This document shows positions 9,731 to 13,507 of a DNA stretch of 64,000 nt, in pieces. Below the pieces are notes generated by a model. That model saw only the letters and a program-made list of their open reading frames with translations, did not search any database and was not told the DNA's origin. Source of the stretch: an uncultured Clostridia bacterium (GTDB taxonomy: Bacteria > Bacillota > Clostridia > UBA1212 > UBA1255). Made by a program: the position numbers and the translations under genes. Position 1 is the stretch's first letter. Each line of letters opens with the position of its first letter. Where the stretch lies: NCBI GenBank assembly GCA_904420095.1, contig CAJFUB010000039.1, positions 1 to 64,000 on the forward strand, written 5' to 3'.

Positions 9731-9759
9731 TTGACATATCTTCCTGAATTTTCTATAAT
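9731..9759 (+). promoter_or_regulatory. Consensus promoter of dockerin/cohesin operon
   Basis: Perfect consensus TTGACA (9731-9736), 17-bp spacer, TATAAT (9754-9759), about 30 bp ahead of the start codon at 9790. Its strength suggests abundant constitutive transcription of the surface pair downstream. Confidence 0.88.
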
Positions 9760-9789: not shown

Positions 9790-12021
9790 ATGGATACGAG
9801 AAGAAACAAAAGAAAAAAACACAAGCTGCATAAAGATTTGAAGCGTTTTTCCGTGCTGCTGGCCGGTTTCGTTCCTTTTATCTGTTATTTGATCGTCCTG
9901 ATGCAGGGAATCTCATTGATCGCCGATGGAAAGACGGGACTTGCTTTTGTCAATACAGAATCGACAGGGCTTGCAGTCCGGGCGTATGCCGGAACCGACA
10001 GTATGCTGCTGGATCGATTGCCAAAAGATTCTCAGATTCTGGTTACGGGATCCGCAGTAGACGGCTCAGGCGCTGTCTGGTACGAAATAAAATATCTGAG
10101 AGGCGCCGACACCTGGCGTACCGGTTACGTCCATTCTTCTTATATCGTATTTTACAATGATATCGCGCCGGTCGGAGAAGATCCGGATTTTGAAAAATAT
10201 CTGGAGGAACAAAATTTCCCGGAAAGCTACAAGGCTCCGCTTCGCGTCCTTCACAAGGAGCACCCCACATGGGTTTTCAAGGCCCAGATGATCGATCTGG
10301 ACTGGAGTACGGCGCTTTACGAGGAAAGCAAGGTCGGCGTAAATATGATTCATCCTTATTACGCCGCGTCATGGCGTTCCATGGAGGAGGGCGCTTACGA
10401 CTGGGAAAACGGCAGATGGATTGAATTGGATACGGGCTGCTACGGCGCTTCGGCTACCATCACCGCTTATTTTCTTGATCCCCGGAACGGGCTCTGCGAC
10501 GACACCAGAATTTTTCAGTTTGAAGATTTATCGTATCTCCCCGATTCCCACAGCGCTGAAAATACATATAATATTGTAAAAGGCACTTTTCTGGCGGGCG
10601 AATACGAATTTCAGACCGTTCGGGATGACGGCTTATACCCGTCCTACGGAATTGTGGAGGGATCGCAGCAGGAGGACGGCACCGTAACATACCGGTTTTC
10701 TTATGTAGACACGATCATGCAGGCGGCAGAGTACGCGAAGGTCAGCCCCTATCATCTTGCCTCCCGCATCCGTCAGGAAATGGGCGTCAACGGCTCGGAG
10801 CTGGCAAAGGGAACGTATCCCGGATATGAAGGATACTTTAATTTTTTCAATATCGGGGCCTATGCGCACAGCGGCAGACCGGCAAGGGAAAACGGAGCGA
10901 TTTATGCAAAGCAGGAGGGCTCCTATCTGCGGCCGTGGACCAACCCGTACAAAGCGATTCTCGGGGGCGCGGATTTTGTCGGGAGCAGTTATATACAAAG
11001 AGAACAGAATACGCTGTATCTCCAGAAATTTGACGTTACGGACGGTGGAAACGGCCGCTACAGCCATCAGTACATGTCCAACGTCAACGCGCCGAAGGAC
11101 GAAGCCTCCAGCCTGAAAAAGGCATACACCGATTCCGGCCTGATAGATACCTCTGTGTTTACGTTTGAGATCCCGGTATATCAGAACATGCCCGAGCTGG
11201 CTGCGGCGCAGCCGGCTTCCGACGATACGAATGCTACAAACAACAACTGGCTGTCCTCCATTACGGTCTCCGGGGGCACGTTTGAGAGCCAATTTTCCCG
11301 CACGCAATACGAATATACGGTTAATGTACCTGCGGATACCGCTTCCGTAACCATTGCGGCGACGCCGTGTGATTCCGGCGCCACGCTGCTCGGCACCGGA
11401 GAGCTTTCGCTGACGTCGGACACCACGCAGCATGTCATTACGGTTCTGGCGCCCAGCTTTGAGCCGAGAACTTATACGCTGTACATTGTAAGAAGCGGCA
11501 GCATTCCCTCCACGCCGTCAGCTCCATCGGAGACGCCGACGCCCACGCCCACTCCGACGCCCACTCCGACGCCGACACCAACGCCTACTCCCGATCCTGA
11601 CCCGGTCCTGCAGAGCGGCGTTTATGAGATCGGCACTTACATCACCGGCGTGGAACCGAATACAGATGTCGCCACCTTCCTGGGGAATTTTTCCGTACAA
11701 AACGGGACGATCCAGCTGATGACCTCCTCTGGCGCCGCCAAGGGCAGCGGGGCTGTTGGGACAGGCGATCTGCTGCAATTGTACAAGGGGAATGAAGTGA
11801 TGCAATCTTATTTTGTCGTCATTTACGGAGACGTCAACGGAGACGGCAGCATTTCCCTGACCGATATGGTAATGATCCAGAGGCAGCTGCTCCAGATCAA
11901 AATCTTAGAGGGGCCGTATTTTACCGCGATGGACACCAATCACGATCAGTCGTGTTCTCTGGCGGACATGGTAACGATTCAGCGCGACCTGCTGGGAATC
12001 GGTACCGTTCCGCAGCGCTGA
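9790..12021 (+). CDS. Membrane-anchored glucosaminidase with C-terminal dockerin
   Basis: Predicted cell-wall hydrolase of 743 residues. Order of parts: basic N-terminus and one membrane helix (about 24-46); an SH3-like segment (about 55-122); a glucosaminidase-type catalytic domain (about 155-460), with the probable catalytic Glu in SRIRQEMG (about residue 330) and the NFFNIGA motif; a cadherin-like beta-sandwich (about 487-570); a PTPTPTP linker (about 575-605); a small beta module typical before dockerins (about 606-680); and a type I dockerin with two calcium-loop repeats, DVNGDGSISLTD and DTNHDQSCSLAD. The next gene, 16 bp downstream, encodes a cohesin-like membrane protein, so the two probably bind. 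The GGAAAGG ribosome site is 5-10 nt from ATG. Family function is well grounded; the dockerin partner is inference. Confidence 0.85.
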   Translation: MDTRRNKRKKHKLHKDLKRFSVLLAGFVPFICYLIVLMQGISLIADGKTGLAFVNTESTGLAVRAYAGTDSMLLDRLPKDSQILVTGSAVDGSGAVWYEIKYLRGADTWRTGYVHSSYIVFYNDIAPVGEDPDFEKYLEEQNFPESYKAPLRVLHKEHPTWVFKAQMIDLDWSTALYEESKVGVNMIHPYYAASWRSMEEGAYDWENGRWIELDTGCYGASATITAYFLDPRNGLCDDTRIFQFEDLSYLPDSHSAENTYNIVKGTFLAGEYEFQTVRDDGLYPSYGIVEGSQQEDGTVTYRFSYVDTIMQAAEYAKVSPYHLASRIRQEMGVNGSELAKGTYPGYEGYFNFFNIGAYAHSGRPARENGAIYAKQEGSYLRPWTNPYKAILGGADFVGSSYIQREQNTLYLQKFDVTDGGNGRYSHQYMSNVNAPKDEASSLKKAYTDSGLIDTSVFTFEIPVYQNMPELAAAQPASDDTNATNNNWLSSITVSGGTFESQFSRTQYEYTVNVPADTASVTIAATPCDSGATLLGTGELSLTSDTTQHVITVLAPSFEPRTYTLYIVRSGSIPSTPSAPSETPTPTPTPTPTPTPTPTPTPDPDPVLQSGVYEIGTYITGVEPNTDVATFLGNFSVQNGTIQLMTSSGAAKGSGAVGTGDLLQLYKGNEVMQSYFVVIYGDVNGDGSISLTDMVMIQRQLLQIKILEGPYFTAMDTNHDQSCSLADMVTIQRDLLGIGTVPQR

Positions 12022-12037
12022 CAAGGAGTCAAAACAC

Positions 12038-13507
12038 ATGAAAAAAACAATTTTATCCTTAATCATTCTATTGGGACTTCTGCTTGCCTGCGGAGTACCC
12101 GCCGGAGCCGCATCCATGAGCGCATTTATCGATGCGGACTCTTATGCCGAGGTCGGCTCTGAATTTAAAGTTACCGTACGATTTGAATCGGATGCCGGCG
12201 CGATGGTGCGCGCGGTATTGCAGTATGACAGCTCTGTCGTTACGTTTCTGCGGACGTCCTCCTCCGATGCAAACGACGTAGGCGGAACAGTCAATATCGT
12301 CACTCTGTCGTTTCAGACGACGCATGAGATCGAATTATATTTTCAAATGAATCAGGAAGCTCCCGCCGTTTTTTCAACGCAGGTGCTGGAAAGCTCTACG
12401 GTCGATATGGCGTCGCTCGGAACGCCCTACGCCAGCCACACCGTAACAGGCTTTTACCCCACGCCGGAGCCCGTTACGCCGGCGCCGACACCCACGCCGA
12501 CGCCAACTCCGACTCCGTTTATACCGACTGTGGATCCAGAAGCGACGCCTTCCACCCCGCTGGAATTTATGGAAAACGGAGAAATGCGTTTTATTGCGGA
12601 TAATTTTTCCGAAGAGTCCGTGCCGATTCCAGAGGGCTTTGAAAAGGTGCAGTACAATTATAAGGGCAGTGAAATCTTCGTTTTAAAGAATACATATGAA
12701 GTAGTCATGGTTTATGCCACGAATATCATCGGAGAAGAAGGTCGTTTTTATATTTACAATGAAAGCAGAGACATTCTTACCCCTTATACGGAATTCGTAC
12801 TGGGTTCCAATATTTATACGTTTCTGATTCCTGCCGAAGCGCTGCCGGAGGGAGTTACGGAAACCTCCGTTTCAATCGGGGAATACGAAAGCGTAACCGC
12901 ATACGCCATTGCCAACCCGGATTATGCCGATTTCGTATTGGTCTATGCGTTTAATCAAACAAATGAGCCCGGCTTCTATCTGTATGATACCGCGGAAGGT
13001 ACGCTGCAGCGCTGCGTCGACGAAACCCTTCTGGGTGCTGCGGTCCCTTCCCCCACCGGAGCCGTGTCTCCCTCTCCGACACTGACGGTTTCGCCGGCAC
13101 GTACCCCTGTTCTGCAGAACACCTCTGAACGCGGCGGAAAACTGGATACCAATACGCTGATTCTGGTTGCGATCGGCATCTGCTTTGTCGCAGCGCTTGT
13201 CGCCGTGATTGTTATCCTCGTACGGAAGCGCCGGATCGAACAAAGCTACGAAGAAGAAAACGATGTAGAATTTCTGGAAGATATTATTCTGGAAAAATCT
13301 CTCAGTCAGAAGCAGACGCAGGAACGAGAGGAACCGGCCGCGGAACCGGAAAGCGCTCCGCTTTCCTCCGAATCGTCAGAAGAAGCGCAGCAAACGCAGC
13401 CGCAGAACGAGCCGGAACCGCAGGAAAACGAGAAAGAGCAGGAACGGAATTCCGACAAAGAGGATGACGATGATGTATTACAGCTCGGCAATCACTTCCC
13501 GCACTGA
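12038..13507 (+). CDS. Membrane-anchored cohesin-like surface protein
   Basis: Predicted bitopic surface protein of 489 residues. It has a signal peptide (about 1-25, with a possible lipobox-like LLAC); a first beta-domain (about 27-135) whose opening EVGSEFKVTVRF and LQYDSSVVTF resemble cohesin/Ig-like scaffoldin modules; a PTPTPTP linker; a second all-beta domain of unknown type (about 177-345); a Pro/Ser linker; one transmembrane helix (about 372-398); and a very acidic Glu/Gln-rich cytoplasmic tail of about 90 residues. It is co-transcribed with the dockerin-bearing glucosaminidase 16 bp upstream and probably anchors it. The final 30 bp overlap the convergent aroB 3' end. Cohesin assignment is moderate: the fold pattern fits but identity is low. 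Confidence 0.7.
   Translation: MKKTILSLIILLGLLLACGVPAGAASMSAFIDADSYAEVGSEFKVTVRFESDAGAMVRAVLQYDSSVVTFLRTSSSDANDVGGTVNIVTLSFQTTHEIELYFQMNQEAPAVFSTQVLESSTVDMASLGTPYASHTVTGFYPTPEPVTPAPTPTPTPTPTPFIPTVDPEATPSTPLEFMENGEMRFIADNFSEESVPIPEGFEKVQYNYKGSEIFVLKNTYEVVMVYATNIIGEEGRFYIYNESRDILTPYTEFVLGSNIYTFLIPAEALPEGVTETSVSIGEYESVTAYAIANPDYADFVLVYAFNQTNEPGFYLYDTAEGTLQRCVDETLLGAAVPSPTGAVSPSPTLTVSPARTPVLQNTSERGGKLDTNTLILVAIGICFVAALVAVIVILVRKRRIEQSYEEENDVEFLEDIILEKSLSQKQTQEREEPAAEPESAPLSSESSEEAQQTQPQNEPEPQENEKEQERNSDKEDDDDVLQLGNHFPH

Follow-up and report, generated by a model that had tools for sequence, protein, structure and literature searches.

The cohesin-dockerin clasp is known from cellulose-digesting complexes. 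In the window, the whole 64,000-nucleotide stretch of DNA that we analysed, a dockerin stands at the end of a predicted wall hydrolase, and the adjoining gene encodes a membrane-anchored protein that opens with a cohesin-like domain. This arrangement raises the question of what the dockerin binds, and of what such a clasp would do at the cell's own wall. We argue below that a dedicated, non-cellulosomal cohesin-dockerin clasp probably holds the hydrolase at the membrane.

A dockerin-bearing glucosaminidase is encoded beside a membrane-anchored cohesin protein

The two genes lie head to tail with a spacing of 16 bp, and both open reading frames and their domains are as an earlier note, made from the letters alone, had described them. 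That note had also read one consensus promoter ahead of both genes, and a perfect sigma-70-type site is indeed present there; the window holds four such 12/12 sites, against a chance expectation of 0.03. As part of the clasp reading, and with the same good probability, we take the pair to be a two-gene operon. The features of the locus are as follows.

9731-9759, forward strand: sigma-70-type consensus promoter, TTGACA-17 bp-TATAAT, 12/12 match
9790-12021, forward strand: wall hydrolase with dockerin, 743 aa (open reading frame, Pfam and PDB sequence matches)
9838-9930, forward strand: N-terminal hydrophobic stretch, residues 17-47, membrane anchor or signal peptide (hydropathy)
9967-10146, forward strand: SH3_3 domain, residues 60-119 (Pfam E 2.5e-6)
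10699-11142, forward strand: GH73-type glucosaminidase domain, residues about 304-451 (PDB and NCBIfam matches)
10777-10779, forward strand: catalytic Glu330 (AtlE alignment)
11251-11493, forward strand: Cadherin-like beta-sandwich domain, residues 488-568 (Pfam E 1.1e-6)
11611-11817, forward strand: conserved module preceding the dockerin, residues about 608-676
11824-11994, forward strand: type I dockerin, residues 679-735, with two calcium loops and recognition positions LT / LA (Pfam E 4.2e-8)
12038-13507, forward strand: membrane-anchored cohesin partner, 489 aa (open reading frame, AlphaFold2 and structure matches)
12107-12460, forward strand: cohesin domain, residues 24-141 (AlphaFold2; best PDB matches are cohesins)
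12560-13024, forward strand: second extracellular domain, two tandem repeats (half-against-half profile E 2.7e-17; AlphaFold2 pLDDT 91.3)
13139-13237, forward strand: transmembrane helix, residues 368-400 (hydropathy maximum 3.33)
13238-13504, forward strand: acidic cytoplasmic tail with 29 D/E and DDDDVLQL near its end

The first protein had been described as a glucosaminidase followed by a C-terminal type I dockerin with two calcium loops, and database comparison bears this out. Its catalytic domain is of the AtlE/SagB type: the nearest solved structures are AtlE entries, matched over residues 309-451 with E 1.4e-14, and lower in the list come 6u0o, with E 8.8e-12, and others. Glu330 aligns to a position that reads Ala in AtlE entry 4pi8, and its equivalent is Glu in 42 of the 42 pairs checked; by sequence criteria, the match and the catalytic Glu place the domain among GH73-type glucosaminidases. 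The NCBIfam SagB model (NF052642) also matches (E 4.8e-16), at 58.8 bits against a cut-off of 425, a score that leaves the protein outside SagB proper. The dockerin scores 33.7 bits against the Pfam cut-off of 22.9 for Dockerin_1 (PF00404), and its calcium loops read DVNGDGSISLTD and DTNHDQSCSLAD. Together with the module that precedes it, it aligns jointly with many further proteins of the order.

Sequence searches of the second protein were less direct. A search against the PDB gave nothing useful, and Pfam Cohesin (PF00963) matched the window domain with E 0.053 and 14.2 bits, below the cut-off of 24.1 (15.8 bits in the genome-wide search). The profile search proposed in the earlier note thus falls short for the window domain itself and succeeds for some of its relatives: Cohesin was the most frequent family match among 11 homologues (7 of 11, best E 2.4e-5), and relatives such as L083 and L102 exceed the cut-off. 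We modelled residues 24-141 with AlphaFold2 from an alignment of 11 sequences, obtaining a mean pLDDT of 95.9. When the model was compared with the PDB by Foldseek, cohesins or their complexes took the first seven places and eight of the first nine (E 1.5e-7 to 3.6e-6; TM 0.66-0.77, the first five 0.72-0.77), so that a confident non-cohesin fold, set beforehand as grounds for refuting the idea, did not arise. The N-terminal domain, proposed as cohesin-like from sequence alone, is thus predicted to adopt the cohesin beta-sandwich.

Beyond the cohesin, Foldseek gave the tandem-repeat domain no PDB match with E under 0.2, and no convincing family emerged from Pfam, nor any from NCBIfam, where three partner proteins were searched. 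The transmembrane helix and acidic tail are present as the earlier note had stated. Close relatives of the receptor have a similar DD-EILQL ending, at or near the C-terminus (DDEILQL), and an acidic-hydrophobic C-terminal motif such as DDFEFIDL occurs in many partners, for example L083, L103 and L137.

The pair recurs across clostridia, often alone

Relatives of the hydrolase turned up in MAGs labelled Clostridia, Oscillospiraceae, Ruminococcus and Lachnospiraceae. In many loci a gene for a cohesin-type membrane protein lies directly downstream, and the adjoining pair is conserved within the window's genus and beyond it, in other families. The pair recurs across many clostridia, often as the sole cohesin-dockerin couple in the genome. 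We counted dockerins and Pfam-detectable cohesins genome-wide in two sets, 25 selected genomes and 200 from one clostridial family, f31. By hand counts from two tables, 47 of the 200 have exactly one dockerin, and in 19 of these 47 the sole detectable cohesin lies 130-235 bp from it on the same strand; because ancestry is shared, these are not 19 independent events. The glucosaminidase pair accounts for 18 of the 19, and a papain-type protease protein for the other (G553). No other detectable partner is present in these single-pair genomes, which offer a clean system for a direct test of the pairing. Outside f31, the single dockerin of one genome (G064) likewise adjoins its single, sub-threshold, cohesin match.

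The recognition face of the dockerin shows signs of selection

We compared the two dockerin repeats within and between proteins across 42 pairs, taking the recognition positions from published work (PMC4081043; PMC5301203). Identity at exposed positions is 76% within a protein and 27% between proteins. Recognition positions 10-11 give 79% and 15% (p 2e-4), and core position 16 gives 43% and 27%. Such repeat symmetry has been tied to dual binding (PMC5301203). It is as expected for a functional cohesin-binding face, a sign of selection there, and at the level of sequence it fits dual-binding dockerins that are kept matched to one cohesin. Dockerin and cohesin distances also correlate (r 0.28, p 5e-4 after removal of the catalytic-domain and repeat-domain distances), but this is a weak test, since catalytic domain and cohesin distances correlate about equally (r 0.25) and the relationship is therefore non-specific.

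The enzyme can be exchanged, and the dockerin lost

In three genomes of another family, f50, a SpoIID-SH3-dockerin gene directly precedes a receptor of the same kind, and the one genome checked, G092, gave no hit to the glucosaminidase domain of the window. Loci L079, L084 and L085, each with SpoIID-SH3-dockerin upstream, also have a further cohesin receptor gene, which does not directly follow a dockerin gene.

Other relatives lack the dockerin. In nine, a detected cohesin adjoins a hydrolase without a dockerin. Dockerin-less pairs that keep the cohesin or a cohesin-like domain persist in part of f31 and in family f47, where the likeness to cohesins consists of weak profile matches, and 7 of 8 f47 genomes have no dockerin match anywhere. 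As the cohesin-like domain persists in these relatives, the partnership may rest on more than the clasp. In G022 (L070) PG-binding domains take the dockerin's place on the hydrolase, and its partner protein showed no cohesin. A quick tree of the pairs, with many open forks, gives a rough count of at least eight changes of dockerin state. We did not use the presence and absence of the two domains among pairs as a statistic because the cohesin is near-universal and f47 forms a single clade.

The window's genome has a further cohesin-dockerin network

The window's genome holds seven further dockerins and three canonical cohesins of another type, at sites on C1 (L013 2989-5958), C24 (L014), C8, C12, C49 and C39 (75987-76145). 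The canonical cohesins are on contigs C1 and C24, and the one on C1 belongs to a membrane-anchored protein that adjoins a dockerin protein. The seven other dockerins share an LLLQYLAEW-type ending. Wherever positions 10-11 could be read, they are G-R/K/V/I/A in these dockerins, as against LT/LA in that of the window. The earlier note had called the system minimal, which is wrong for this genome.

How the hydrolase might be held at the membrane

We think it probable that the two proteins form a dedicated clasp. The glucosaminidase would be exported, and its C-terminal dockerin would bind the N-terminal cohesin of the adjoining membrane protein, presumably in the presence of calcium, on which cohesin-dockerin pairs typically depend. 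The clasp would keep the enzyme close to the membrane's outer surface, and there it may trim or release glycan strands, like SagB held by SpdC. Cellulosomes gather plant-polysaccharide enzymes on a scaffoldin with several cohesins; here the partner has a single cohesin and the cargo is a wall hydrolase, so the pair does not qualify as a cellulosome. The proposal that a non-cellulosomal pair links a peptidoglycan hydrolase with a membrane receptor thus gains support from the predicted fold, the conserved pairing, the 19 single-pair genomes, the repeat symmetry and the SpoIID replacement; it is this core of the earlier interpretation that stands, without its minimality and without signalling inward.

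Three other readings have to be weighed against the clasp. The cohesin-like domain may no longer bind dockerins, and the two proteins may work together by way of other surfaces, as in relatives that lack the dockerin; the persistence of such pairs in f47 and part of f31, the dearth of dockerins in the f47 genomes and the sub-threshold score of the window cohesin all speak for this. We nevertheless find it unlikely, given the symmetry of the dockerin's recognition face, the dockerin retained in the SpoIID replacement and the confident cohesin fold. Somewhat less likely again is that the hydrolase binds the scaffoldin-like cohesins encoded elsewhere in the genome while the adjoining protein serves another role. 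Three canonical cohesins are available for this, in the Ruminococcus relatives the related hydrolase has a dockerin and the partner gene is absent downstream, and dockerin-bearing wall hydrolases have been reported to join scaffoldins (PMC6403190). The recognition positions of the window dockerin differ from those of the other network, however, and in 18 f31 genomes the glucosaminidase's neighbour is the only detectable cohesin.

The partner could also serve chiefly for signalling, sensing the hydrolase once docked and passing the signal on through the acidic tail; signalling inward by way of the tail had been suggested in the earlier note. Acidic tails longer than 30 aa are found in 46 of 70 relatives, often with the acidic-hydrophobic motif at the end, but the other 24 are short or not clearly acidic, for example basic in f47 and f50, and Pfam found no kinase, sigma or anti-sigma domain. 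Inward signalling is thus unsupported, and we regard this reading as very improbable.

Relation to known systems

The titles, abstracts and passages searched, with subscription papers outside the search, gave no account of this gene pair. Dockerins on wall hydrolases are themselves on record: GH73 is listed among the dockerin-bearing proteins of R. albus (PMC4081043), and lysozyme activity is noted for the R. champanellensis cellulosome (PMC6403190). Ruminococcus loci L048-L053 encode relatives of the window hydrolase that likewise bear a dockerin, but they differ in having no dedicated cohesin receptor gene downstream, docking there being ascribed to scaffoldins. Closer to the receptor are R. 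flavefaciens ScaE and single-cohesin proteins with C-terminal transmembrane helices (PMC11557425), which share with it one cohesin and anchoring to the cell. Unlike these, the window cohesin adjoins the gene for its likely partner, stands beside an unclassified tandem-repeat domain and would carry a wall hydrolase. The best structural matches to the window cohesin are those of Clostridium perfringens glycoside hydrolases (2jh2, 2vo8, 2w1n); both systems are non-cellulosomal, but the C. perfringens cohesin is part of a carbohydrate-active enzyme, whereas that of the window belongs to a membrane protein that yielded no enzyme domain.

For the function of the pair, the nearest likeness is the SagB-SpdC peptidoglycan release complex of Staphylococcus aureus, in which a membrane protein both holds and regulates a glucosaminidase (PMC12272431). 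There is a sequence match between the window enzyme and the SagB model, and by analogy the enzyme is perhaps held at the membrane in the same manner. SpdC differs in being an integral membrane member of the CAAX protease family (PMC12272431) and not a cohesin receptor.

If the clasp reading is true, cohesin-dockerin binding extends from plant-polysaccharide and mucin machines to the control of a cell's own wall. It would also suggest what single-cohesin proteins anchored in the membrane might bind; for two such proteins the partners have been called unclear (PMC11557425). A bolder idea, which we think doubtful, is that across clostridia the cohesin-dockerin clasp is mainly a private one-enzyme, one-receptor device for wall or surface enzymes, and that large cellulosomes are derived. 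It draws on the glucosaminidase and SpoIID pairs, and on a subtilase and a papain-type protease encoded beside cohesin proteins. At L142 (2467-6876) a subtilase-dockerin gene, and at L115 (2040-7901) a papain-type protease-dockerin gene, is followed by one for a membrane-anchored protein that overlaps a cohesin match.
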